DNA of 33,572 bases, taken from assembly GCA_902634075.1 (NCBI GenBank), contig CACPJA010000012.1, positions 1 to 33,572 on the forward strand, read 5' to 3'. The first letter of the stretch is position 1. The number at the start of each line of letters is the position of its first letter. The notes under the pieces were generated by a model. The model did no database searches. It worked only from the letters and a program-made list of their open reading frames with translations, and had not been told where the DNA came from. A program made the position numbers and the translations under genes. This DNA is from an uncultured Gammaproteobacteria bacterium (GTDB taxonomy: Bacteria > Pseudomonadota > Gammaproteobacteria > Steroidobacterales > UBA11654). Shown one piece after another: positions 3,331-30,988 of the stretch.

Positions 3331-4800
3331 ATGAACCATCAGAAAGTCGGCATTAGCGCAATTGCAATCTACGTTCCTCCTTATCGTGTGGATCTAGAGA
3401 AATGGTGTGAATGGGCCAATCAATCTTGGGAAAAAGTTGAGAATGTTATTGGGACAGGTTTTAGAATGATGGGCCCAAATCAAACAGTGTATACGATGGC
3501 TGCGAATGCAGTTCTAGACTTAATTCTCTCTCATGAGATTGACTCATCAGAGATAGGTTTTCTTGCACTAGGCACTGAATCAAGCACAGATAATTCTGCA
3601 GGCTCAATCATTATTAAGGGCATGGTCAATAAAGAATTACAAAGAAGATCAATGAAGCCTATTTCGAATAATTGTGAAGTACCAGAATATAAGCAGGCTT
3701 GTTTATCAGGGATCTATGCTTTAAAGAATGCAGTTAGATTCATTAAAACTGATGCTCCTTCACTTAAGGGTATTGTTGTTTGTTCAGATATTGCCCTATA
3801 TCAAATAGGAGCAAGCGGTGAACCTACTCAGGGAGCAGGTGCCGTGGCTGCCTTAATCGAGTCAAACCCCAAGATTGCAGAAGTTAGGACTTCAGAGGCA
3901 GGTTCTGCTTCTGATTATCGTCATTTAGATTTTAGAAAACCTATACAATATAGAGCTAAGCAGGCAAATGGCCATTCAGATTTTGATCTTGAATTACCAA
4001 TATTTAATGGCAAGTACTCGTCTTCCTGTTATGTGGATGGAACTCTAAATGCCATGGATAATATGTCTTCTAAAAATTCAGGGCATTTGGCAAATCATCT
4101 AAGGGGCACCAAGGCTGTTTTTATGCACAGACCTTTCAAAAGAATGCCAATAACTGCGTTCTCAATTGCTTATCTTTATGCCTTGGCACATGGGGACGAT
4201 TCAGATCATGAAGAATTGACTAGATATATAAATTTATCAAATCTAGATCAAAATAAAATCCTTGATGAACTTCTGAATAAGCCCAATGTGAGTGATTTTC
4301 CTGAGAATGATATAAATCGTGAAGCTTTTCCATTAACTACACAGCTAGTCAAGATTATCCATAAAGAACCTGATTTTCAGACAAATGTGGTTTCAAAGCT
4401 TAGCTTTGGATCAACTCTTACAACAGAGATGGGTAATATTTATTCTGGCTCTGTTTTTGGATGGTTATCAGCTGGATTAGAAGATGCATTGAAAAATGGA
4501 ATTGATTTATCTAATGAGGAGGCTTTAATGATTGGGTATGGTAGCGGAGATGCTGCCGAGGTGATTCCAATTTTCTTTATTGAGGGATGGCAAGAATCAG
4601 TTAAGTTAACGCCATTTTCTAGTGCGTTCAAGTCCTATATTAATCTTACTCATAAACAATATCTTAAGCTTCGATCAGAGAAGACAACCAATGGCATTGA
4701 CTATAACTTGAAGAATGAATTTGTTGTTAGAAAAATTGGTTCAGAAGAGAGGATTGATTTTCAAGATGCTGGGATCGAGTATTACGAGTTTCTTAATTAG
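3331..4800 (+). CDS. hydroxymethylglutaryl-CoA synthase family protein
   Basis: A 489-residue thiolase-fold condensing enzyme. HMG-CoA synthases join acetyl-CoA and acetoacetyl-CoA to HMG-CoA. The catalytic triad can be placed: Glu83 in GTESSTDNS, Cys124 in YKQACLSGIYAL and His266 in MHRPFKRMP. The C-terminal GNIYSGSVFGWLSAGLED and YGSGDAAEV segments match the family's GNMYTAS and SYGSG blocks. I chose the ATG at 3331; a TTG two codons upstream would be weaker. No other mevalonate-pathway gene (thiolase, HMG-CoA reductase, kinases) is in the window, so a role in isoprenoid synthesis, leucine-related metabolism or beta-branching cannot be decided. The stop overlaps the stop of the opposite-strand peptidase gene by 4 nt. 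Confidence 0.88.
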   Translation: MNHQKVGISAIAIYVPPYRVDLEKWCEWANQSWEKVENVIGTGFRMMGPNQTVYTMAANAVLDLILSHEIDSSEIGFLALGTESSTDNSAGSIIIKGMVNKELQRRSMKPISNNCEVPEYKQACLSGIYALKNAVRFIKTDAPSLKGIVVCSDIALYQIGASGEPTQGAGAVAALIESNPKIAEVRTSEAGSASDYRHLDFRKPIQYRAKQANGHSDFDLELPIFNGKYSSSCYVDGTLNAMDNMSSKNSGHLANHLRGTKAVFMHRPFKRMPITAFSIAYLYALAHGDDSDHEELTRYINLSNLDQNKILDELLNKPNVSDFPENDINREAFPLTTQLVKIIHKEPDFQTNVVSKLSFGSTLTTEMGNIYSGSVFGWLSAGLEDALKNGIDLSNEEALMIGYGSGDAAEVIPIFFIEGWQESVKLTPFSSAFKSYINLTHKQYLKLRSEKTTNGIDYNLKNEFVVRKIGSEERIDFQDAGIEYYEFLN

Positions 4801-6809
4801 TTTAAATACTTCTCATACCAGTCAAGATAGCGATCTAGAACATCCTTATTATAGCTGGGTATAGAAAAAGAATGGTGTTGACCTGGATAGATAATTAGTT
4901 CAGTGGGTATTTCGAGATGCTTTAATGCTTGATACATCTGCTCTGAACCAATTAAAGGGACATTATAATCCTTTTCTCCAACAAGAAATAATGTTGGAGT
5001 TTTTATATTTCCTGCATTTAAGAAAGGGTGGGAGACACGCAACCAGGCTTCAGTATTACCCCAAGGTGTTCCAAGTTCAGTAATATAATCTCTAATATAT
5101 TGATCGTCTCCAAATCCACTTAAAAGGTTAGCAATGCCAGCACCTGATGTCGCAGCCTTGAATCTTTGATCTTTTGCAATCACGTAATTTGTAAGCATGC
5201 CTCCATAGCTCCAGCCTCCAATGCCAAGCTTATTCTCATCGATGTAATCCAGAGTCAAGGCATAGTCTAGAGCTGCACTGATATCTTTTGTGTCAATGCC
5301 TCCCCAATCTGCAAAAAGAGCCTTTTGAAAATCATGACCTCGTCCTGAGCTACCTCTTGGATTTATAGCCATCACGATGTAATCGTTTGAGGTAAATAAT
5401 TGCCAATCGAATCTGAAACTCAAACCATATTGTGAAACAGGACCGCCATGAATTCTGATTAAAAGCGGGTATTTTTTATTTGGATCAAAATTGTCTGGTT
5501 TTACTAGCATTCCATGTATGTCTTCATTATCAAAACTCTTGAAAGAGACCTCTTCTGTGCTACCTATAGCTTTTTTATTTATAAAATCTTGATTATGAAA
5601 AGTTAATTGAGTTACTGATCCGTTCCTCAGACTATAAAGCTCAGCAGGTTCGCTTGTAGTTGAAGCGAGAAAGATAACCTTATTATTTCTTTGAATATAT
5701 GAATTCGAATAGTTGGATAAGTAATACTCAGGGGGAGTTATTTTTTCAATGGTTTTCTCTGACATAGAGTATCTGGCCAATTGGCTTTTCATGTCATCTT
5801 CAATAACAAAATAAATAGTTTCACCGTCTTCAGACCAGCTTTGGATCGCTGTATTGCGATCAAGGCTGCTGGTAATATATTCTGTTTCTTTGGATTGAAC
5901 ATCAATAATAGAGACTTCTTGGAGTGAGTACCATAGTAGGTCAGGATCTCCTCCATATTGATAAGCAATTCTTTTCCCGTCTGGACTCCATTTAGGTCTT
6001 GAAGCCCCAGAAGGTGAGGAATCTTCTCCAGGATGTGTGGTTAATTGTATGGCTTCTTTCTTATTAATATCTTGAATGTAAATATCCCAATTGTTGTGCC
6101 GATCAAAATCTCCTTTCTTAGTTACATAGGCTATCCTCTTACTATCGGGTGACCAAGAAGGAAGGTAGTGATTTGTATCATCTAAGCTTAATTGGGTACT
6201 TTTTTTTGATTTTAGATCTGTAATAAAAATATGATCCCGCTCAGAACCTAGGAAGTCTTTATAATCTTGTTTGAATTGATATCGATCAATTACATAGGGC
6301 TTAGGTGTTTCATCTTCTTCTTGTTTTGGAGCAGAGATATTAACAACTAGAGCTGCTTTTTCATTGTTGGGGGATATTTCAAAATCCAGGATATCTCCTT
6401 CTATTTTTGTCAGTTGTTTTTTTGTTTTATTGGATAGGCTGATTGCCCATAGTTGATTGAAATCTTTCAGTTTTCCTCGACCTGGAGAAAGAAAGATAAT
6501 TGATGCCGCATTTGGTGAAAATTTAGCTTTTCCAAAATCAATATTCTCCAAAATTACTCTTCTTTTATTATTGTCTGTATTTAACAGCAAAAGAGTGCTC
6601 TGATATTCATCTTCTTTAGAGTTAACGGCAGAAACACTATAGATAATTTCATTACCAGACTTTGAAAGATCAACTAGGCTGACTTCTTTTAAGTCATATA
6701 AATCATCTGTGCTAATAAGCTTAGTGTCAGCGCTTAAAAAACTTGGTGAAGATATCACCAAGAAAAATATAGCTCCCAAAAGTCGAGTAATAAAAGCGTT
6801 TTTATTCAT
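4797..6809 (-). CDS. S9 family peptidase (prolyl oligopeptidase / acylaminoacyl-peptidase type), exported
   Basis: A 670-residue serine peptidase with a signal peptide (MNKNAFITRLLGAIFFLVIS followed by a Ser-rich stretch ending in Ala), so probably periplasmic. The middle third contains repeated WD40-like beta-propeller (PD40) motifs such as PSWSPDSKRIAY and PKWSPDGKRIAY. The C-terminal alpha/beta-hydrolase domain has the catalytic triad: Ser in GGWSYGG (about residue 533), Asp in GEKDYNVPL (about 613) and His in GQHHSF (about 644). The usual oxyanion region HGGP and the NPRGSSGRG segment are also present. These enzymes cleave short peptides. It starts 3 nt after the BCCT transporter stop codon on the same strand, so the two are almost certainly co-transcribed. 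Confidence 0.93.
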   Translation of the reverse strand: MNKNAFITRLLGAIFFLVISSPSFLSADTKLISTDDLYDLKEVSLVDLSKSGNEIIYSVSAVNSKEDEYQSTLLLLNTDNNKRRVILENIDFGKAKFSPNAASIIFLSPGRGKLKDFNQLWAISLSNKTKKQLTKIEGDILDFEISPNNEKAALVVNISAPKQEEDETPKPYVIDRYQFKQDYKDFLGSERDHIFITDLKSKKSTQLSLDDTNHYLPSWSPDSKRIAYVTKKGDFDRHNNWDIYIQDINKKEAIQLTTHPGEDSSPSGASRPKWSPDGKRIAYQYGGDPDLLWYSLQEVSIIDVQSKETEYITSSLDRNTAIQSWSEDGETIYFVIEDDMKSQLARYSMSEKTIEKITPPEYYLSNYSNSYIQRNNKVIFLASTTSEPAELYSLRNGSVTQLTFHNQDFINKKAIGSTEEVSFKSFDNEDIHGMLVKPDNFDPNKKYPLLIRIHGGPVSQYGLSFRFDWQLFTSNDYIVMAINPRGSSGRGHDFQKALFADWGGIDTKDISAALDYALTLDYIDENKLGIGGWSYGGMLTNYVIAKDQRFKAATSGAGIANLLSGFGDDQYIRDYITELGTPWGNTEAWLRVSHPFLNAGNIKTPTLFLVGEKDYNVPLIGSEQMYQALKHLEIPTELIIYPGQHHSFSIPSYNKDVLDRYLDWYEKYLN

Positions 6810-6812
6810 CGA

Positions 6813-8315
6813 TCAATCATAATGTTTTTTTAATGTTTTCACTAGACTGACGGCAAAAATTGGAAAGAGCACGAGTAGCGGTGGAGACATGATTAATATT
6901 ACGTCCATAGCGGCCCTATTGCTGTTTATAAAAAATAAGCAGGCAGGAAGTATAGCGAGAATAAATGCCCAAAATAATCGGCTGTATCGACTGGGCTCAA
7001 CATTATCACTGCTGGTCTTTTTGACGTGTGATGAGAGGAGGTAGGAGACTGAATCATAAGAGGTTGCTATGAATATAACCACAATTAAACAATAGGCAAA
7101 GACAAAGAGTTTTCCATAAGGCAGGGTTAGGAGAACCTTAGTTGCAGCAGCTGTATGCCCTTCATTGGCTAGAATGTCGGAAACAATAAGCTGTCCTGAG
7201 AGTTCAAGTGTGATTGCGTAATTGCCCATGATTGCAAAAAAGACGAAACAACCAAGCGAACCAAGGAGAAGCATTCCCATCACTACCTCTCTTAAGGTTC
7301 TGCCTTTAGAGACTCTAGCAACAAAAAGACCTACTTGTGGACCAAGGGCTATCCACCATGCCCAATAAAACACTGTCCAATCTTCAGCAAATTTAGATTT
7401 TTCTGAGATTCCTAGGGTGTTCATACCAATGAAATTAACCAAGATTTCTTTTAAAGAATTAAAGGTAAGTACCAGGATCTCATAGGCGGGACCGAATGAT
7501 AGGACAGCAATTAAGAAAACAAGTGACATCAGAATATTGGCATTGCTAATGACCCTAATACCATTGTATATCCCTTTATAAACACTATAGGCAAACAGTG
7601 AAGTACATAATGCCAACATAGATAAATCTAGCATCAAATTATGTTCAATGTTAAATATTTCTGAAACGCCTGCCCCAACAATTGGCACATACATTCCCAT
7701 ACTTCCTCCACTTGCGCCAATCAGCACAAACACAAAGATAAAATCAACCAGTCGACCAAAAAAGGAGGTTTCAACAGACGTTTCAGAATTTGTTCTTAAA
7801 CCTGAACTGAGTCTTATTGACCCTAATTTGAAATGATAGAACGGAACTGCTATCGCAATTGCAGGAAAGCAATAAAGAGCCCAGCCGGTGATACCCCAGT
7901 GGAAAATCCCATATCCTGAAGCTAGATGGAAGGCTCTCTCACTAAATGGCACAATCCCAAATAAAGACTCGTCCACATAATAAGCCCATTCTACGATTGA
8001 CCAATACAATATACCGCCACCAATTCCTGAGCAAAATAGCATGCACGCCCAGCTAAAATTAGAGTATTCAGGGGCTGTATCTTTCCCACCGAGCCTAAAA
8101 TTTCCATATTTAGAAAAAGCAATATAGAGAATAAATAGCACTGTTAAGATGCCAAAGATCATATAGGTGGGCCCTAAGAGATCAACAATATTTTGATAAA
8201 TATCACGAATTAATTCACCCGTTTCTATAGGGTATATCGCCATTGGTAGAGTGATTACAATAATTGCTAGTAAGATGCTAAATACTGTTATTTGATCTGT
8301 GTTATTACTTTTCAT
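6813..8315 (-). CDS. BCCT family betaine/carnitine/choline-type transporter
   Basis: A 500-residue inner-membrane transporter of the betaine-carnitine-choline family, with about 12 hydrophobic segments. Typical BCCT motifs are visible: GGGILYWSIVEWAYY near residue 100 and the signature around 315-345 (WTVFYWAWWIALGPQVGLF then ARVSKGRTLREVV). WTVFYWAWW resembles the carnitine-transporter (CaiT) branch, but substrate cannot be assigned from this alone. Glycine betaine, carnitine or another quaternary ammonium compound is most likely. It is preceded by a small single-pass membrane protein gene that overlaps it by 11 nt and followed at 3 nt by the S9 peptidase gene. Confidence 0.93.
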   Translation of the reverse strand: MKSNNTDQITVFSILLAIIVITLPMAIYPIETGELIRDIYQNIVDLLGPTYMIFGILTVLFILYIAFSKYGNFRLGGKDTAPEYSNFSWACMLFCSGIGGGILYWSIVEWAYYVDESLFGIVPFSERAFHLASGYGIFHWGITGWALYCFPAIAIAVPFYHFKLGSIRLSSGLRTNSETSVETSFFGRLVDFIFVFVLIGASGGSMGMYVPIVGAGVSEIFNIEHNLMLDLSMLALCTSLFAYSVYKGIYNGIRVISNANILMSLVFLIAVLSFGPAYEILVLTFNSLKEILVNFIGMNTLGISEKSKFAEDWTVFYWAWWIALGPQVGLFVARVSKGRTLREVVMGMLLLGSLGCFVFFAIMGNYAITLELSGQLIVSDILANEGHTAAATKVLLTLPYGKLFVFAYCLIVVIFIATSYDSVSYLLSSHVKKTSSDNVEPSRYSRLFWAFILAILPACLFFINSNRAAMDVILIMSPPLLVLFPIFAVSLVKTLKKHYD

Positions 8316-8454
8316 CTAACTGTATCTCGGATAATTCACTGGACACTGGCTCTGTTTGCTTTTTTGCCATTTCGCCGACAAGAATAAACTCAAACACCAC
8401 GATAAAGACAAAGATAAAAAAGAACACCGCTAAAGTTATAATAGTTTCCTTCAT
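8305..8454 (-). CDS. small single-pass membrane protein upstream of BCCT transporter (49 aa)
   Basis: A 49-residue open reading frame on the minus strand, starting at ATG 8454 and ending at TAA 8305, where it overlaps the BCCT gene start by 11 nt. The product begins MKETIITLAVFFFIFVFIVV, giving one strongly hydrophobic helix of about 25 residues. A short, charged tail follows (EMAKKQTEPVSSELSEIQLDEK at the end), probably cytoplasmic or periplasmic. No family is recognised. The overlap with the transporter start suggests translational coupling and a function tied to the transporter, such as an accessory or regulatory subunit. That is inference. It is supported by coherent coding: one frame, a membrane helix followed by a polar tail, and no competing gene in the gap. 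Confidence 0.65.
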   Translation of the reverse strand: MKETIITLAVFFFIFVFIVVFEFILVGEMAKKQTEPVSSELSEIQLDEK

Positions 8455-8558
8455 GAATGATTCCTTGAGAAAATTAGTTTAGAGTCTATTAATTAAATCC
8501 AGTTTTTTAATTATCGAGTGTATTATATTACTTAAACTATGGAGCAAAAGGGAGAAAA
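8455..8558. promoter_or_regulatory. divergent intergenic region between BCCT operon and aldolase operon
   Basis: This 104-nt AT-rich spacer must hold the start signals for both the minus-strand membrane-protein/BCCT/peptidase genes and the plus-strand aldolase operon. A TATTATATT stretch at 8521-8529 could be a -10 element for the plus strand, but I see no convincing -35 element at the right distance. GGGAG at 8550-8554, 4 nt before ATG 8559, is a good ribosome binding site for the aldolase gene. Confidence 0.4.
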
Positions 8559-9362
8559 ATGAGTCCTGAAAAAATAGATAGGACTAAAGGTAAATTACCT
8601 CAAAAAGAAAAGGGGTCATTAAACCCTATACCTGCACAATCAATCGAAGAACAAAGACGACTCCAATTGGAACGTTTAGCAGCCAGTTTTAGACTATTTT
8701 CTCTATATGGCTTTGATGAAGGGTTGGCAGGCCACATTACCTTGAGAGACCCGGAGTTTAGTGATCATTTTTGGGTTAATCCATTGGGGATGAATTTCGC
8801 ACATATTTGTGTTTCTGATTTACTATTAGTTAAAGAAGACGGAAAAATTATTCAGGGAGATCGACCCATCAATCCAGCTGCTTTTTATATCCATTCATCT
8901 ATCCACAAGGCTAGACCAGATGTTAATTCTGCAGCTCATGCCCACTCCATTTATGGAAGAACATTTTCAGCTTTAGGTAAAATGTTGGATCCCATTACTC
9001 AAGATGCTTCGATGTTTTTTCAAGAGCAATCTATATATGCAGATTATGGAGGCGTCGCCTTTGAGAAAGAAGAGGGAGCCGCAATTGCAAAGGCTTTAGG
9101 CGATAATCGAACAGTAATTCTTCAAAATCATGGCCTATTAACCACAGGATCCAATGTTGATATTGCTGCTTGGTTATTTATTGCTATGGATAAATGTTGT
9201 CAAAGTCAGCTCATTGCAGAAGCTGCAGGTGAGCCCACAATAATTCCTGAAGAAACAGCCCTTCATGCAAAGGCTCAGGCGGGCAGCGATATGGTGCTTT
9301 GGGCAAGCTTTCAACCCCTCTATGATTTGATTTATCAAATATCACCTGATTTTTTAGACTAA
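8559..9362 (+). CDS. class II aldolase/adducin family protein
   Basis: A 267-residue cytoplasmic protein of the class II (metal-dependent) aldolase/adducin family, which includes fuculose-phosphate aldolase and sugar-acid decarboxylases. The family's metal ligands are visible: His127 and His129 in AHAHS and His191 in QNHG. The GLAGHITLRDPE segment near residue 55 matches the conserved substrate-loop region. About 35 polar residues precede the domain. The start ATG has a strong GGGAG ribosome site. The gene's TAA shares one base with the ATG of the aldehyde dehydrogenase, so the product may generate or consume an aldehyde handled by that enzyme. Substrate is unknown. Confidence 0.9.
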   Translation: MSPEKIDRTKGKLPQKEKGSLNPIPAQSIEEQRRLQLERLAASFRLFSLYGFDEGLAGHITLRDPEFSDHFWVNPLGMNFAHICVSDLLLVKEDGKIIQGDRPINPAAFYIHSSIHKARPDVNSAAHAHSIYGRTFSALGKMLDPITQDASMFFQEQSIYADYGGVAFEKEEGAAIAKALGDNRTVILQNHGLLTTGSNVDIAAWLFIAMDKCCQSQLIAEAAGEPTIIPEETALHAKAQAGSDMVLWASFQPLYDLIYQISPDFLD

Positions 9363-10771
9363 TGTTGGAAGAAACCTTAAATAAGCAAAAAATCCAGTCT
9401 AGACGACAGACCTATCCTAGTTTGGCTATCCGACAGGATCGACTTGATCGGATTCTTGAGATGATGCTTGAATATCAGGATCAAATACCGGTTGTTTTGT
9501 CTGAGGATTTTGGTCATAGGTCTCATATGATCTCAAGATTCTCTGATGTCGCAGCGGTTTTTGATGCGGTGCATTACATAAAGAAAAACTTAAAAAAATG
9601 GATGAAAGACGAGTCAAGAAAAGCGGCACCTCCCTTTAATTTATTAGGTGCTAAAGCTTATATACAATACCAACCTCTTGGGGTAGTGGGTATTATCAGT
9701 CCTTGGAATTTCCCGTTTAATTTAACATACGGTCCTCTTGCGATTGTCCTAGCTGCTGGTAACAGAGCTATGATCAAGCCCTCAGAATTTACCCCAAGAT
9801 CGTCGGCCTTGATGAAAACCATGATTAATAAGTATTTTGATGAGGATGAAGTTCAGGTCTTTCCAGGCGATGCTTCAGTTGGCCAAGAGTTTTCAGCACT
9901 GGCATTTGATCATCTGCTCTTTACCGGATCGTCTGCTGTTGCAAAAAAAGTGATGCAAGCTGCTTCTAAGAATCTTGTCCCTGTTACCCTGGAATTGGGA
10001 GGAAAGTCACCTGTGATTGTAAGTGCTGAGGCAAATATAAATACTGTTGCTGATCGAGTTTGGAACGGAAAATTAATGAATGCAGGACAGATCTGTATAG
10101 CTCCAGACTATACATTTGTGCATGAGACGATGTTAGAAGAATGGGTTGAGGCATCCAATGAGACTGTCAATAATATGTATCCTTCAATTTATGATAATGA
10201 TGACTACACCTCTATGGTTAATGAGGGTCATCATAAACGGATGCTTAAATATCTAGAAGATGCAAAGCAAAAGGGTGCAAAAGTTATCGAAATAAACCCT
10301 TCAAATGAGACCGAAGAAAATAGAAATCACAATAAGATCATGCCGGCAATGATCATTAATCCAAACGATGAGATGCTGGTGATGCAGGAGGAAATCTTTG
10401 GCCCGATTATGCCCATAAAAACTTACACAAAAATTGACCAGGTGATTGATTATATTAATCTCCATGATCGACCGTTGGGCCTTTATTATTTTGGTCATAA
10501 CAGGAACGAGCAGGACCTTATAGTTAAGAACACAGTTTCTGGTGGTATGGCTCTTAATGATGTCATTTTTCAATTTGTTCAGGATGATATTCCCTTTGGG
10601 GGCATAGGACCAAGTGGCATGGGTCACTATCATGGCATAGAAGGCTTTAAGACATTTTCTCATGCAAGAGGTGTCTATAAGCAGACCCGCATAGAAGCTA
10701 TGCTGAAACTTATGAGACCGCCTTATGGAAAACTGTTTGATCAGATCCTATCAAGTCGCATCAAAAAGTAA
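9362..10771 (+). CDS. aldehyde dehydrogenase (coniferyl-aldehyde dehydrogenase-like)
   Basis: A 469-residue NAD(P)-dependent aldehyde dehydrogenase. Visible motifs are PWNFPFNL near residue 115, KPSEFTP, FTGSSAVAKKV, the general-base Glu211 in LELGGKSP, the catalytic Cys245 in GQICIAPDY and EEIFGPIMP near 343. The APDY segment after the catalytic Cys and the overall length fit the coniferyl aldehyde dehydrogenase branch (CalB), many of which act on long-chain or aromatic aldehydes. Substrate is not certain. It overlaps the aldolase gene by 1 nt and abuts the ferredoxin gene with no gap, indicating one operon. Confidence 0.93.
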   Translation: MLEETLNKQKIQSRRQTYPSLAIRQDRLDRILEMMLEYQDQIPVVLSEDFGHRSHMISRFSDVAAVFDAVHYIKKNLKKWMKDESRKAAPPFNLLGAKAYIQYQPLGVVGIISPWNFPFNLTYGPLAIVLAAGNRAMIKPSEFTPRSSALMKTMINKYFDEDEVQVFPGDASVGQEFSALAFDHLLFTGSSAVAKKVMQAASKNLVPVTLELGGKSPVIVSAEANINTVADRVWNGKLMNAGQICIAPDYTFVHETMLEEWVEASNETVNNMYPSIYDNDDYTSMVNEGHHKRMLKYLEDAKQKGAKVIEINPSNETEENRNHNKIMPAMIINPNDEMLVMQEEIFGPIMPIKTYTKIDQVIDYINLHDRPLGLYYFGHNRNEQDLIVKNTVSGGMALNDVIFQFVQDDIPFGGIGPSGMGHYHGIEGFKTFSHARGVYKQTRIEAMLKLMRPPYGKLFDQILSSRIKK

Positions 10772-11137
10772 GTGAAAAAAACACCCGAGCAAATACTCCA
10801 AGATAAACTGACAGAACTCGGTGTAGATGTTTTGCAAAAACATATTTTTTTATGTGCAGATCAAACAGAAGCCAATTGTTCTCCCAAAAGAAAAACCCTT
10901 GAGGCATGGTCATACCTTAAGGCTAGACTTAGTGAACTAGGTCTTGATAACAGAGGAGGGATATATCGCTCTAAAGTAAACTGCTTAAGAGTTTGTTCTC
11001 AAGGACCTATTGCTGTGGTCTACCCCGATGGAGTCTGGTATAAACGATGCACACCGGAGGTTCTAGAGAAGATTATTCAAGAGCATTTAGTTAATGGATC
11101 TGTCGTTGAAGAATACGTTATTTCAAAGCCGAGTTGA
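10772..11137 (+). CDS. (2Fe-2S) ferredoxin, thioredoxin-like fold
   Basis: A 121-residue small redox protein. Its cysteine spacing, Cys28-X7-Cys36-X34-Cys71-X3-Cys75, matches the thioredoxin-like [2Fe-2S] ferredoxins related to the NuoE fold. The segments [20 protein letters not shown] and the following R-C are typical of this family. It starts with GTG directly after the dehydrogenase stop codon. Its role is probably electron transfer, possibly for the aldolase/dehydrogenase pathway, though no ferredoxin-dependent partner lies next to it. The last 20 nt overlap the 3' end of the opposite-strand PQQ dehydrogenase gene. Confidence 0.88.
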
Positions 11138-13220
11138 TAGTTTCAAGTAAATAAGTTTCATTGGCTCTTTGAATTAAATAGGCGTGAATGTCTTCAGCAT
11201 CCTGCTCACTTAATCGTCGAGCAAAACCAACCATACCTTTTTCTGTGTACAGACCACCAAGGGTAATTTCTATAAATTTCTCATGCGTCTCTTCGGTCAT
11301 GAATCTTAAGTCTGCAATAACACCTCCTCCCATGGCACCAGCTCCGTGGCACATGTGACATTCCAAGTGATAAAGATCTTCTCCTCTAGCAATACTGGCT
11401 TGATCTTCGATTGGTGGAGGGGGATTAGGCATATTAATGCTGGCCGCTCTCTGGGGTAATTCAGTTTTACCGTCCAATGAAAAGGTTACGATCCGTGCGT
11501 TTATAGGGCCTCCGGAATTCTTTGGAGGTAGACCGGCTTGAAGTGCAAAAACACCGCCATAACCAGCCACTACGGTGACGTATTGTTTGCCGTCGATACT
11601 GTAAGTAATTGGCGCAGCAACAATCCCAGTTTGAAGATCTTTGCTCCATTTCTTCTCTCCTGTTTGAGCATCATATGCAACCAGATCACCATCCGATGTT
11701 CCTTGAAACACAAGATTTCCAGAGGTTGATAAAACACCGCCGTTCCAGGGTAGGGTTAAGTATTGCTTCCAAACCTCTTTTTGTTGAACGGGATCCCATG
11801 CGCTGAGCCGACCTCTAACGCTTCTAGCCAACAAGGAGAGCTGAAGTAGATTTTTTGGTGGTGCCAATACCGTTATATCACCCGCGGTGTTCCAACCGCC
11901 TTCATCGTATTCATAGTTATTGTCTTTTGCAAACGGCATATAGAGTTCTTGGGCAGGAATGTAGACCAATCCCGTTTCTGGATTATAAGACATCGGCATC
12001 CAGTTATGACCCCCCAATGCACCTGGAAAAACAAGTTTTAAACTTGTTTCATAATCGCCCAGATCGATTTTTTCTGGTCTTCCTGTTTCTGGATCGACTT
12101 TGCTGGCCCAAGTTACTTTTACATAGTTTTCTGCAGATAAAAAATCACCATTGGTTCTGTCAATGACATAGAAGAAACCATTTTTTGGAGCCTGCATGAG
12201 TACCTTTCTAAGATTTCCATCAATGGTAATATCAGCTAGGATAATATGCTGTGTTGCTGTGTAGTCCCAATTATCTCCTGGTGTTGTCTGATAATGCCAT
12301 ACGTATTCGCCGGTATCGGGTTTTAAAGCAACAATGGATGAAACAAATAAATTATCTCCCCCCCCAGGGCTTCTGGTCTTATAGTTCCAAGGAGATCCAT
12401 TGCCTGTTCCTATATAGAGCAGATCGAGATCTGGATCATATGCCATTGAATCCCATACTGTTCCTCCGCCACCAGCTTTCCACCATTCAGAGCCTTTCCA
12501 AGTTTCGGCTGCCATTTTCATGGCATCGTTTTCAAATCCGTCTTCTGGATTTCCTGGAACGGTAAAGAATCTCCAGATCATTTCACCGCTATTAACATCG
12601 TAAGCGCTGACATAACCGCGAACACCAAAATCGGCTCCTCCATTGCCTATAATGACTTTGTCTTTAATGATTCTAGGTGCTCCAGTGATGCTGTAGGCTT
12701 TAAAATTATCCACCGTCATTGTCTCCCATATCACGGCTCCATTTTTAGCATCCAAAGCAATCAGTCTTCCGTCTAGAGTTCCTAGGTAAAGCTTACCTTC
12801 CCATGCTGCTACACCTCGGTTAACGGCATCACAACATAAGTAATAAGCCTTTTCTCTTGGAACCTCTGGATCATATTTCCATTTTAATTCTCCCGTTACA
12901 GCGTCGTTGGCATAGACAACACTCCAAGCCCCTGTACTGAACATGACTCCATCTATAACCAAGGGCGTAGCCTCGTGTCCACGGCTGCTGTCCAGATCGT
13001 GGAACCATTCAATCCCAAGATTGTTAATATTTTCTGAATTAATTTGGTCTAGGGTGCTGTGACGTTGCTCATTATAGGTTCTGCCATGGCTTAACCACTG
13101 ATCGCTGTTTTTATCGGCGTTGATAATTTGATCCGCATCAACATTAAAGTCTTCAGACCAGACTTGATTTGTAAACACAATAAGCGAGAAGGTTAGGACT
13201 ATTTTTCTAAGAAATCTCAT
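11118..13220 (-). CDS. PQQ-dependent quinohemoprotein alcohol dehydrogenase (Ca type)
   Basis: A 700-residue periplasmic alcohol dehydrogenase with a signal peptide ([20 protein letters not shown] then WS). An eight-bladed PQQ propeller fills most of it, and a C-terminal cytochrome c domain carries heme motif CHMCH near residues 620-624, with a candidate Met axial ligand near 662. The adjacent Cys-Cys pair that forms the vicinal disulfide is near 128 (YYLCCDA). The catalytic Asp lies in [10 protein letters not shown] near 318. The residue two after it is Thr, whereas lanthanide-dependent XoxF enzymes have an extra Asp there, so this looks like a Ca2+-type soluble (type II) quinohemoprotein. 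It oxidises primary alcohols and passes electrons to the heme. No PQQ biosynthesis genes are in the window. Confidence 0.93.
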
Positions 13221-19731: not shown

Positions 19732-20190
19732 ATGCAATATTGGTTAATGAAATCAGAACCAGATACTTACAGTATTGATGATTTAAGAGATTTTCAGACG
19801 GACCACTGGGATGGAATTAGAAACTATCAGGTTAGAAATTTCTTCAGAGATGAAATGAAAGTGGGCGATAAAGCTTTTTTTTACCATTCAAATTGTAAAG
19901 AACCAGGAATAGTAGGCCTAATGGAGATCGCAAGCACCGCTTATCCTGATCACACAGCATTTGATAAGACTGAAAAATATTTTGACCCCAAAAGCGACCC
20001 TGATAACCCTAGGTGGTTAATGTTAGATGTTAAATATAACCGACATTTAAAAAGAAAGATTACATTGACAGAACTTCGAGGTGAAAAATTTCTCGAGAGC
20101 ATGAAATTGCTGCAAAAAGGAAACCGGCTCTCGGTGCTTCCAATCACAAGAGAGGAATGGGATCATATTCTGGGTATGGAGAAGACATGA
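19732..20190 (+). CDS. EVE domain-containing protein
   Basis: A 152-residue cytoplasmic protein that is almost entirely an EVE domain (related to PUA/YTH domains that bind modified bases in nucleic acid). Hallmarks are YWLMKSEPDTYSIDDL at the N-terminus, WDGIRNYQVRNF near residue 29, VGDKAFFYHSN and GIVGLMEI. Length is standard for stand-alone bacterial EVE proteins. Biochemical role in bacteria is unresolved. It follows the carboxylesterase by 8 nt and its stop overlaps the next gene's ATG (ATGA), so the three genes probably form one transcript although their functions look unrelated. Confidence 0.93.
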   Translation: MQYWLMKSEPDTYSIDDLRDFQTDHWDGIRNYQVRNFFRDEMKVGDKAFFYHSNCKEPGIVGLMEIASTAYPDHTAFDKTEKYFDPKSDPDNPRWLMLDVKYNRHLKRKITLTELRGEKFLESMKLLQKGNRLSVLPITREEWDHILGMEKT

Positions 20191-20600
20191 GAGGATATAG
20201 AGTTATTTTTATTATGTTCTTTCTACTCTGCTGCAATGGGCTAAGCCTAGCAGCAGAAACAAGCACAAAAGTATTCATAATTCAGCCTAAAAACGGGGAG
20301 ATAGTTGACAAAACTTTTGAAGTAATCTTTGGTATTGAGGGTATGACACTTGCCCCCGCTGGCACTTATGAGAATAATACAGGACATCATCATTTAATAA
20401 TTGATGCTGAATTACCTGCTTTATCATTGCCTATCCCAGCTAGCGAGAACTATGTTCATTTCGGAAAGGGTCAGGATCGAACCGTATTAACTCTTGGTCC
20501 CGGAAAACACTCGCTCCAATTGCTCTTAGGAGATGGAAATCACGTTCCACATCAACCGCCTGTCGCTTCAAAAAAGATTGAAGTAGTTGTTAAACCTTAA
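20187..20600 (+). CDS. secreted DUF4399-like protein
   Basis: A 137-residue exported protein. I chose ATG 20187, which overlaps the EVE stop codon, has GGAGA just upstream, and begins a clean signal peptide (MRGYRVIFIMFFLLCCNGLS then a cut after AAE). The mature part contains the pattern PKNGEIV, a His-rich TGHHHLIID and HFGKGQ...LTLGPGKHSLQLLLGDGNHVPH, typical of DUF4399 proteins (about 100-140 residues, function unknown). The cluster of histidines could bind metal, but this is a guess. It is convergent with the alpha/beta hydrolase gene, with stops overlapping by 4 nt. Confidence 0.85.
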   Translation: MRGYRVIFIMFFLLCCNGLSLAAETSTKVFIIQPKNGEIVDKTFEVIFGIEGMTLAPAGTYENNTGHHHLIIDAELPALSLPIPASENYVHFGKGQDRTVLTLGPGKHSLQLLLGDGNHVPHQPPVASKKIEVVVKP

Positions 20601-23486: not shown

Positions 23487-24980
23487 GCTTTTAACGATAT
23501 GAGAGGATACATGAAATACCTCAGAGAAAAAGATTTACTGTTAGACGTAGATATAGAACTTAATGTGGCTAGGGAGACCACAGAACTGCAGCCCTTAATG
23601 CGTCATTTACATAATCAAGATGGTCCGGCTTTAATGTTGAATAATCTTTCAGGTTATAACACCAAAGATATACCTGTCTTATTTAATCCCTACGGGACTA
23701 GACAAAGAACAGCTATGATTTTAGGCGAGGACGATCCTTTGAAAGCTAAACTAAAACATGCTGAGATCCTGACCGATCAATCAAAATGGCTAAAACCAAA
23801 ATTGATTGATGCCTCTAAAGCTTCCTGTAAGGAGAATAAGATAGAGAAGAAGGATATCGACATAGGAAAGCAGTTGCCTCATGTTTGGTTCGGGAAAGAA
23901 GGCCCAGCCTATATAACAAATGCAGTTGTCATTACAAAAGATCCAGAAACCGGCATCCCTAACACTGGGTGTTATCGATTAACCCAATTATGGAATGCCT
24001 CACACCCTCATGGTGAAGTTTACTCAGAAGAGGAACAAAAATCATGCCTTTCAATTTTTGCTTTCTGGAACCCGCCTGGGAACCACATTGGCTTGCACTG
24101 GGCAAAGGCTCAGGAAATGGGTAAACCCTTGGAAATTGCCATAGCATGTATGGTTGATCCTGTGATTCAAATAGCAGGGGCTACAAGTATCCCTTTCGGT
24201 CTAGATGAGATGGATTTTGCAGGAGGATTAAGAGGTGAGGCGATTGAAGTTGTCGACTGCGAAACAGTGGATATTCAAGTGCCTGCCAATTCTGAGTGGG
24301 TCATCGAAGGTCAATTCTTACCCAAAAGAGATGTAACTATTGGGCCTCATTCCAATCCCATTGGCTATTATGATGACGCACAATTGTTTCCATTAATTGA
24401 AGTGGATTGTATTACACATAGAAACGATCCTCTTTGGTATTCAACAATGGAGATGGAGCCACCTTTTGATCACAATTACATGGCTTGTTTACCTATCGAA
24501 GGTGAATTACTTAGTGATTTGCAGTCAAAAATACCAGAAGTTGAAGACGTTGTGGTGACACCTAATCTCAGTTATTTTGTTCAACTCTCTGTTGATGGAG
24601 CACAAAAACCACACCCGGAATTTGGAAAATTTGTACTCCACGCAGTCTGGGGTGCTAGTGGACGATGGGGAAGGACAGCTAAAGTTGTTGTGGTTGTCGG
24701 TCCTGATGTAAATCCTTATGATTTGAATGAAGTTGAATGGGCAATTCAAACAAGGGTTCAACCCTTTTCTGACACCATTATCAATAAATCCGGTCAAGCA
24801 TTTCTCATGGATCCATCGGCACCAAAAGATCCAGGACATGGGATTGCTCTTCAATCAGAACAAATCGGTATTGATGCAACTGTTAAGGTCTTTGAGCGCT
24901 TTCACACTTACCCCGAATACAGTAATGCTAACGCAGAGGATGTGGCAGCTATTGCGGAGAAACTAAAAGATATTCTTTGA
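23484..24980 (+). CDS. UbiD-family prenyl-FMN-dependent decarboxylase
   Basis: A 498-residue decarboxylase of the UbiD/Fdc superfamily, which uses prenyl-FMN to decarboxylate aromatic or alpha,beta-unsaturated acids. It starts at GTG 23484 behind AAAGGAGG. Visible blocks are the N-terminal [15 protein letters not shown], the GCYRLTQLW segment near residue 170, [17 protein letters not shown] near 235-255 and the Glu-bearing [13 protein letters not shown] near 270. Length equals E. coli UbiD (497), but the RWLSHRGG region of UbiD is replaced by [10 protein letters not shown], so it need not act in ubiquinone synthesis. The stop is 5 nt before the PEP mutase ATG, so the two are probably co-transcribed. 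Confidence 0.9.
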
Positions 24981-24985
24981 ATTTA

Positions 24986-26605
24986 ATGCCTGAGCAGAAA
25001 AAAACTCAAAAATTCAGGGATTTATTAAACAGCCCGAACCTTGAGTTTTTAATTGAAGCTCATAATGGTATTAGTGCAAAAATAGCAGAAGAGACTGGTT
25101 TCAAGGGTCTCTGGGCTGGAGGGTTAGCGATCTCTGCCCAATATGGCGTTAGAGACAATAATGAAGCCAGTTGGACTCAAGTCCTCGAGACTTTGGAATT
25201 CATGGCAGATGCCACGAGCATACCAATCATGTTGGACGGCGATACTGGGTATGGAAATTTTAATAACGTTAGACGCTTAGTTAATAAACTCGAACAAAGA
25301 GATGTTGCTGCGGTTTGTATTGAGGATAAAGTTTACCCAAAAACCAACAGCTTTATTGATGGTAATAAACAAGAATTAGCAGATATTGATGAGTTTTGCA
25401 GTCGCATTAAAGCTGGAAAAGATGCTCAAACTGATGATGACTTCTCCATTATTACTAGAGTCGAAGCGTTTATAGCTGGCTGGGGACTTACGGAAGCTTT
25501 AAAACGCGCAGAAGCATACCATCAAGCCGGATCTGATGGCATTTTAATTCATAGTGCATTGACGGAACCAATTGAAATATTAGCTTTCAAGAAAGAATGG
25601 GCTAATCGATCACCTGTGATTATTGTTCCAACAAAGTATTACAGTACGCCGACAAAAATCTTTTCAGAGGCTGGGTTTTCAATTGCAATATGGGCGAACC
25701 ATATGATTCGATCATCAATTGCATCTATGCAAGAAACTGCTAAGGCGATTTATAAAGATTCTTCCATCACTAAACTCGAAGATCAAATAGCATCTGTAAA
25801 TGAAGTCTTTAGACTTCAGGGAGTTTCTGAATTACTTGAAGCAGAGGAGATGTATCTTCCAAAATCAGATCTAACTCAAAAGGCAATTATTTTGGCTGCA
25901 TCCAGAGGTTCGGCGATGTCAACATTAACTGAAACAAAACCAAAATCGATGGTTAAAATTAAGGACAAAAGTATTCTTGAGCATATTACAGATGTCTATA
26001 ATCAACACGGTATTAAAGACATTACAGTGGTCAGGGGTTACAAAAAAGAAAGTGTTGATTTACCTCAACTCGATTACGTTGATAACGATAACTTTTCAAC
26101 AAGCAGTGAGTTGGTCTCCTTTAATCTAGCTCTCAAGAATAAGGATGAAGATTTTTTTGTTTCCTTCGGTGATGTTTTATTTAAACCTTATCTATTAAAA
26201 CTCTTTGACGAATTCAATGATGACATAGTCATTAGTGTTGATACACAATGGCAAAATTCAGCAAATAAGAATAGAGCAGCAGACTATGTTAGGTGCAACG
26301 AACCTCATTCAAGAGATTCATATAGCCATGAAATTTTTCTTGATCAATGTGGCGAAGATTTAAGAGAGGATGAAATTCATGGGGAGTGGATGGGAGTTGC
26401 TAGATTTTCAAAAGAAATTATTCCTGAACTTAGTAAGATTCTTGCAGGCCTAGAATCTAGAGACGATTTTAATAAGTTGAAATTTCATCATCTGTTTCAA
26501 CATTTAACGGATTTAGGTATCAAGGTTAGGGTCATCTACACCACAGGGCATTGGTTAGATATAGATAGCTTGGATGATGTTGTGGAGGCATCTAATTTCC
26601 TATGA
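24986..26605 (+). CDS. pepM: phosphoenolpyruvate mutase fused to nucleotidyltransferase domain
   Basis: A 539-residue bifunctional protein. Residues 1 to about 290 are PEP mutase, which rearranges PEP to phosphonopyruvate, the entry step to nearly all phosphonates. The DGDTGYGN motif near 84 and [11 protein letters not shown] near 111 are the PepM signature separating it from isocitrate-lyase-type relatives. Residues from about 300 form a nucleotidyltransferase domain with LAASRG in place of the usual LAAGxG and the trailing Arg missing, while KPKSM, a Asp-bearing FGDVLF and WLDIDSLDD are kept. ATG 24986 is chosen over TTG 24977. The next gene starts inside its stop codon (ATGA). Such PepM fusions are known; whether the second domain is active is uncertain. 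Confidence 0.95.
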
Positions 26606-29854: not shown

Positions 29855-30988
29855 TTGAACAATTTTTTAAAAGCTTTGTGTGGTTATCGATCTTTTAAGA
29901 ATGCTAACGACAGTGATAAAGAGCTCGTTTTCTATTCTGAAAGCGGTCAAGATTGGCATCATTTTAGGCCCCTTATTGAGGGGATGCTGGATTATTACGA
30001 ACACAAGATCGCTTATGTTTCTTCAGATCCCAATGATCCTGGATTGAGATTAAAAGATAATAAACTCACAACATATTTTATTGGCTCTGGTGTCTTTAGA
30101 ATTTTATTTTTTCAGTATCTTGATACAGCTCTTTGTTTACTCACAATGATGGATTTAGATAATTTTGAGCTTAAGCGATCAATAAATAATGTCCATTATG
30201 TCTACCTGTTTCACAGCCTAACCAGCACCCATATGGTCGATAATGCAGAATCTTTTGATAATTACGATAGTTTATTATGTGCAGGCCCCCACCAGATAAA
30301 AGAAATAAGGGCGAGGGAAAATCACTATAAATTGCCAGCTAAAAACTTAATCGCTTATGGATATCACAGGTTAGAAGAGTTGATTGAATTGCAATATTTA
30401 AAAGAAACTCCAAGTCGTGAAATTTTAATTGCTCCGACTTGGGGTGAGAATAGTATTTTAAATACAGTGGGCATTGAGCTGTGTGAAATTGTTCTTGATG
30501 CGGGTTATATATTAACCGTTAGACCACATTATGAAACATCAAAAAGAACTCCTAAGGTTATAGAGCAACTGAAGAATCAATTTAAAGGGCATGAAAATTT
30601 TCAGCTGGTGTTAGAAATGGGAGAGAACGATTCCCTATTTACATCAGATCTATTGATCTCTGATTGGTCTGGGATAGCTATTGAATATGCATTAGGGCTT
30701 GGAAAACCAGTCGCATTTATTGATCTACTCCCTAGAGTAAGAAATGACGATTGGGAGAGACTAAATATAGAGCCTTTAGAATCAAGCATTAGAACAAAGA
30801 TAGGGAAAATCATTTCACCACAGGATATTAATTCCTTACCTAGGGTTATAGAAGGAATGATTGATAATCAGGAAAAATTTAGCCAAGAGATAGGACAGTT
30901 GAGAGAAAAATATGTATATAATTTAGGACAAACTAGAACCATTGGACCTAGAGAGATAAAACAATTACTCAACCAAATAAATCACTAG
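29855..30988 (+). CDS. CDP-glycerol glycerophosphotransferase-like (TagB/TagF family) protein
   Basis: A 377-residue GT-B-like phosphotransferase. Enzymes of this family move a phosphoglycerol-type unit from a CDP-activated donor to a glycan or lipid. The C-terminal block SDLLISDWSGIAIEYALGLG followed by KPVAFID matches the DvlItDYSS...kPi motif of TagB/TagF, and RPHYETSKR near residue 225 and YHRLEEL near 168 also fit. The start is TTG 29855 with no clear ribosome site; an internal start is possible but would remove conserved sequence. Directly downstream of a probable CMP-AEP-making enzyme, it is the best candidate to transfer the AEP phosphonate to a surface acceptor. That role is inferred. 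Confidence 0.82.
   Translation: MNNFLKALCGYRSFKNANDSDKELVFYSESGQDWHHFRPLIEGMLDYYEHKIAYVSSDPNDPGLRLKDNKLTTYFIGSGVFRILFFQYLDTALCLLTMMDLDNFELKRSINNVHYVYLFHSLTSTHMVDNAESFDNYDSLLCAGPHQIKEIRARENHYKLPAKNLIAYGYHRLEELIELQYLKETPSREILIAPTWGENSILNTVGIELCEIVLDAGYILTVRPHYETSKRTPKVIEQLKNQFKGHENFQLVLEMGENDSLFTSDLLISDWSGIAIEYALGLGKPVAFIDLLPRVRNDDWERLNIEPLESSIRTKIGKIISPQDINSLPRVIEGMIDNQEKFSQEIGQLREKYVYNLGQTRTIGPREIKQLLNQINH

Follow-up and report, generated by a model that had tools for sequence, protein, structure and literature searches.

Does the short open reading frame that runs into the start of a BCCT transporter gene in this DNA encode a protein, and, if it does, does that protein belong to the transporter? 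The window, that is, the whole stretch of 33,572 nucleotides analysed here, comes from an uncultured Gammaproteobacteria bacterium. An earlier note on it had described a frame of 49 residues that starts 139 nt upstream of the BCCT start and overlaps the transporter gene by 11 nt, and the coordinates of the open reading frames bear out this description on the minus strand. The features on which the argument depends are as follows.

4797-6809, minus strand: S9 dipeptidyl-peptidase-like gene, directly downstream of the BCCT gene with a gap of 3 nt (PF00326, E 4.7e-47)
6813-8315, minus strand: DddT-like BCCT transporter, ATG start, 500 aa (PF02028, E 3.3e-119)
8305-8315, minus strand: overlap of 11 nt between the end of the small ORF and the BCCT start, the basis of the proposed translational coupling
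8305-8454, minus strand: small membrane protein gene, ATG start, 49 aa, with one predicted helix and a variable C-terminal tail
8374-8442, minus strand: hydrophobic segment, residues 5-27 of the small protein, from the alignment of 11 members and its column list
8462-8466, minus strand: Shine-Dalgarno-like AAGGA, 7 nt before the ATG of the small ORF

Orthologues of the BCCT were sought in 59 genomes with the BCCT of the window as the query. Nine genomes of the same genus gave orthologues with identities of 97% and 66-70%, and one genome of a second genus (G010) gave an orthologue with 59% identity over part of the protein only; the apparent gap in the G010 transporter reflects a run of N in the assembled sequence. 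The family, which is one of gammaproteobacteria with small genomes, was thus represented by 11 genomes including the window's own, of which the completeness is 77%, and 10 of the 11 are from a single genus. The small ORF lies directly upstream of the same BCCT in all 11 (ten in one genus and one in the second), and a family-wide profile search found exactly one copy of the small protein in each genome. The length of the product ranges from 43 to 56 aa. Of 10 neighbourhoods searched by tblastn alone (1e-4), two (L149 and L151) gave no match to the small ORF, and both copies were found by the profile and by direct reading.

The earlier note had held that its proposal would fall if the ORF were broken in close relatives. 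No such break was seen, since the frame is free of stops over the first 37 codons in all 11 genomes. Over the same span, four of the other five frames contain stops in every genome and the fifth contains them in 8 of the 11. The comparison of synonymous and non-synonymous change, which the same note had proposed as a check, pointed in the same direction. In four close pairs the differences at codon positions 1, 2 and 3 were 13, 6 and 33, respectively, that is, 33 of 52 fell at the third position (binomial p 8.5e-6). The pN/pS value for codons 2-37 was below 1 in all 55 pairs, ranging from 0.00 to 0.84. For the four close pairs it was 0.14-0.27 in the small ORF and 0.07-0.15 in the BCCT, indicating from the substitutions that the small protein is under selection, which is looser than that on the transporter. 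In the deep comparisons the values were 0.41-0.84 for the G001/G007 lineage against the rest and 0.50-0.77 for G010 against the rest, and it is in these comparisons that constraint on the small protein is least clear. When the window's copy was evolved in simulations without constraint, none of 5000 runs kept as much identity to L003, L004 or L011 as is observed, and 78 of 5000 did so for L007. Judged by these patterns in the aligned genes, the 49-codon ORF is almost surely a real gene.

The alignment of the 11 members showed that M1, F11, F23 and K31 are invariant and that E3, I5, L8 and G27 are nearly so. Residue 22 (codon 8389-8391), which lies within the hydrophobic segment beside F23, is Glu in nine members and Asp in two. 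After residue 31 the tail varies in both length and sequence. AlphaFold, run with the 11 sequences, gave a helix over residues 2-34 followed by a poorly defined tail, and the mean pLDDT was 93 over residues 1-10, 97 over residues 11-20 and 91 over residues 21-30. With its one hydrophobic segment and a helix modelled with high confidence up to residue 30, the product is predicted to be a protein with one transmembrane helix. Conservation confined to one face of this helix was not significant (permutation p 0.11). Searches of the small protein against Pfam, NCBIfam, PHROGs and PDB chains gave no convincing match; the best was PHROG 19198, a family of unknown function, at E 0.014 in 4 of the 11 members. 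The viral contigs searched contained no relative of the small protein.

The overlap between the two genes was then compared among the genomes, taking in each case the in-frame BCCT start nearest to the alignment. By this count the genes overlap by 11 nt in five genomes, by 14 nt in another five and by 17 nt in the remaining one, and the phase of the two frames is constant in all 11. In L007 and L011 a further-upstream ATG is present in the BCCT frame, and its use would lengthen the overlap to 32 and 44 nt, respectively. In the window AAGGA stands 7 nt before the small ORF and only GAG, at 10 nt, precedes the BCCT start; a ribosome-binding site at the first gene together with a weak one at the second fits translational coupling. 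This arrangement varies among the relatives. In L003 a convincing Shine-Dalgarno sequence is absent at both starts, the small ORF of L007 has none, and a good one precedes the TTG from which the BCCT starts in L005, L007 and L011. No conserved RNA structure was found across the junction (consensus energy -1.29 kcal/mol). A scan of 8250-8650 for promoters found no sigma-70-like site. A single terminator-like hairpin occurs at 8613-8626 (minus strand), inside the divergent aldolase gene and upstream of the small ORF (mean for shuffles, 0.2).

The transporter itself appears to be complete. The PF02028 match has a score of 399 bits (cut-off, 27) and runs over residues 14-496, corresponding to positions 6-484 of the 485 of the profile; no piece of the core that would have to come from the small protein thus appears to be missing. 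The closest solved protein is DddT (E 5e-113), which is described as a BCCT-family DMSP/Na+ symporter of Psychrobacter sp. D2 forming a trimer of 12-helix protomers (PMC13270143). We mapped the sites of DddT by alignment on 10 orthologues, leaving out G010 because of its run of N. In all 10, the Na1 side-chain ligands S256, D421 and S422 are kept, and at the Na2 site T418 is kept and T419 is Ser. The aromatic residues W105, Y112, W140, W313, F316, Y317, W320 and W321 are likewise kept in all 10, and the aromatic-box position of Tyr324 holds Leu in every one; A99 is Gly, and S204 is Ser or Thr. The Leu at the position of Tyr324 suggests a changed substrate. These residues would fit Na+-coupled uptake of an onium solute of the betaine or DMSP type, perhaps not DMSP itself; according to the DddT paper, the substrate is hard to predict from sequence similarity alone (PMC13270143). 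A Pfam scan covering 22 of the 28 listed window proteins found no member of a family named for DMSP lyase. The AlphaFold model of the BCCT (10 rows) had a mean pLDDT of 45.6 and was too poor for use.

We then considered the surroundings of the two genes. The S9 peptidase gene is possibly on the same transcript as the BCCT. No match to it was obtained around the BCCT genes of G001 (L151) and G007 (L149), and the small ORF is kept in both. The peptidase is therefore not an obligate part of the arrangement. In G010, of the second genus, the small ORF, the BCCT, the peptidase and the divergent aldolase are all found together. Synteny across the genus extends from pyruvate kinase to the amidohydrolases, within the limits of the contigs. 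Because the whole block is syntenic, the adjacency of the small ORF and the BCCT is by itself weak evidence of a relation between them.

Several other features of the window were observed. Genes for a class II aldolase, an aldehyde dehydrogenase and a ferredoxin-like protein (8559-11137, plus strand) are divergent from the BCCT, and a PQQ alcohol-dehydrogenase-type gene (11118-13220, minus strand) faces this run; the genus shares the synteny of this block up to the ends of the contigs. Farther along, a PEP phosphomutase domain is joined to a MobA-like nucleotidyltransferase (24977-26605, plus strand), and a CDP-glycerol glycerophosphotransferase-like ORF is found at 29855-30988; together these could be a cluster for a phosphonate-decorated surface polymer. 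An EVE-domain ORF (19732-20190, plus strand) and a DUF4399 ORF (20157-20600, plus strand) overlap by 34 nt in the automatic list of ORFs, which is long unless the second starts later.

Beyond the family, we ran the profile at E 0.01 on 396 genomes of the order, at E 0.001 on 369 of the class and at E 0.0001 on 398 of the phylum, these draws being overlapping. Only three weak matches were obtained, at E 5.6e-3 in a 56-aa frame, at 4.7e-4 inside a 448-aa frame and at 7.3e-4 in a frame with a stop, and we took them as chance. Reading of individual loci gave the same picture. By the profile and by direct reading, no relative of the small ORF lies beside the BCCT genes of 20 loci of other relatives (L012-L031). 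The same is true of 19 further loci from the same and related genomes (L034-L046 and L048-L053), a set in which L043 ends at a contig end, L035, L042, L050 and L052 have runs of N, and three loci repeat the first set. The DddT-like and other paralogous BCCTs of the carrier genomes also lack a relative. Among the named BCCT loci, taken as the best 80 of at least 587, 79 had none and the exception, L073, is the G010 contig; 70 more BCCT loci of the class had none.

Unrelated hydrophobic ORFs of at least 25 aa were present within the scanned distance upstream of 7 of the 79 named loci and 7 of 69 of the further loci (the scan was usable for 69 of these 70, L181 being left out since the BCCT start assumed for it did not fit). 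In 2 of the 69 (L211 and L222) such an ORF reached into the 5' end of the BCCT.

A tree of 108 BCCTs has a branch that sets the 11 carriers apart from all others, with a support of 94 by a quick method. Their nearest neighbours are L066-L068, two of the three being titled SAR86, and this sister clade stands at 46-47% identity. A divergent ORF in L067 and L068 begins 38 nt ahead of the sole in-frame BCCT start and leaves no room for a small ORF. L066 has a hydrophobic ORF of 23 aa (3750-3821), under the 25-aa cut of our scan, that ends 39 nt before the BCCT start, does not overlap it and gives no match to the profile. Since the carriers' transporters make up one branch and the paralogues in the same genomes lack the small ORF, the small ORF tracks the transporter clade and not just the genome. 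Both a gain in the family and a loss in the sister clade fit this distribution. The known range is one family, which points to a lineage-specific addition and not to a general BCCT component. The earlier idea of a conserved BCCT partner holds in one part, namely a conserved, selected one-helix protein that is coupled in position to the transporter in 11 of 11 family genomes; its extension to a partner of BCCT transporters in general is rejected within the sampled loci, where no relative was found outside the family.

These observations can be explained in several ways. That the ORF is a chance, untranslated frame is hardly credible: short AT-rich ORFs are common, and 2 of 69 other BCCTs have an unrelated hydrophobic ORF that enters their 5' end, but the conservation, the third-position excess and a frame left unbroken over large synonymous divergence are against it. 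The fusion of the two frames by a programmed +1 frameshift at the stop of the small ORF, which would give the BCCT an extra N-terminal helix, is also very improbable. The phase of the BCCT relative to the small ORF is indeed the same in 11 of 11 with overlaps of 11, 14 and 17 nt, but common descent would give a constant phase too; close to the junction every BCCT has an in-frame ATG or TTG of its own, and the letters of the junction contain no frameshift motif recognisable by eye.

The two other alternatives accept that the small ORF is translated. It may be a leader of which the act of translation controls BCCT synthesis by termination and reinitiation, and its hydrophobic peptide may draw the ribosome towards the membrane. 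An overlap of 11-17 nt and the weak Shine-Dalgarno at the window's BCCT start suit this explanation. However, the constraint on the amino acids, with invariant F11, F23 and K31 and an always acidic residue 22, exceeds what a leader should need, and a conserved RNA structure is absent (the -1.29 kcal/mol given above), so that we consider the leader improbable. A product that shares only its transcript with the BCCT and has a separate role, for example for a neighbouring enzyme or elsewhere in the membrane, is unlikely too. It gains from the block-wide synteny in the genus, through which the adjacency is partly inherited; against it are the overlap with the BCCT start in all 11 genomes, the persistence of the small ORF where the peptidase has no match and the absence of a second, free-standing copy.

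We therefore lean, by a small degree, towards the explanation that the product of the small ORF is a single-pass protein that is translationally coupled to one DddT-like BCCT and binds it as an auxiliary subunit. The subunit role is suggested by the overlap, the constant pairing and the conservation; the coupling, the binding, the contact residues and an effect on transport are all putative. We counted in its favour that the pairing of the small ORF with the BCCT outlasts the downstream peptidase. We counted against it that other BCCTs, including those of the sister clade, manage without the small protein, and that L005, L007 and L011 have a good Shine-Dalgarno of their own at the BCCT start. 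If the subunit explanation is right, ribosomes that end the small ORF would re-initiate at the overlapping BCCT start, and the two proteins would be made side by side. The small helix might then pack against the outside of the BCCT bundle, where the conserved Phe residues and the acidic residue 22 would touch the transporter, and the small protein may stabilise or tune the BCCT in the manner of MAP17 for SGLT2. A stronger form of this proposal is that, with this protein, a BCCT is for the first time seen to have a dedicated single-helix auxiliary subunit, gained by one clade, and that the intramembrane acidic residue of the subunit touches the transporter and determines its stability, coupling or range of substrates; this we hold to be quite possible, though short of probable.

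If it is true, the locus would reveal the way in which a LeuT-fold transporter acquires an auxiliary subunit of one helix, and the same-genome paralogues and the sister clade, both of which lack the small protein, are available as natural controls. Heterologous assays of marine BCCTs may in that case fail for want of the small protein. Two DddT-like BCCTs from metagenomes gave no DMSP uptake on testing (PMC13270143), and nothing ties either of them to the clade with the small ORF. Some marine BCCTs that seem inactive alone could be missing such a partner, if the subunit explanation holds.

To our knowledge, BCCT transporters work without partners. A literature search, with most subscription-journal papers outside its scope, found no report of a small or accessory subunit of a BCCT. 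Among transporters with the LeuT fold, those of the NSS family can be paired with a MetS-like small subunit, which is a very short one-helix protein. The profile of this subunit (NF033493) had no match in the 11 members at E up to 0.1 or in the window's own genome, while as a positive control it matched in Corynebacterium glutamicum and two archaea; the partner there is an NSS transporter, whereas it is a BCCT (PF02028) here.

Within the BCCT family, BetP is regulated by its own C-terminal domain, and the review that describes this gives no small partner in its available part (PMC10710835). BetP and DddT are both described as homotrimers (PMC13270143, PMC10710835), and neither 'subunit' nor 'small protein' occurs in the available text of the DddT paper (PMC13270143), unlike the arrangement proposed here. 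Small membrane proteins of the AcrZ, MgtS and KdpF types modulate transporters or belong to them (PMC10710835, PMC10903887), but these transporters are of other families. The closest likeness in function is found in MAP17 (PDZK1IP1), a single helix that interacts with TM13 of SGLT2 and is an essential auxiliary subunit, forming part of the fixed scaffold (PMC10803289). The resemblance is that MAP17 is a single-helix auxiliary of a Na+-coupled LeuT-fold transporter, in that case of the SSS family (PMC10803289). The difference is that the system is human and the partner is an SGLT, whereas the protein described here would bind a BCCT.
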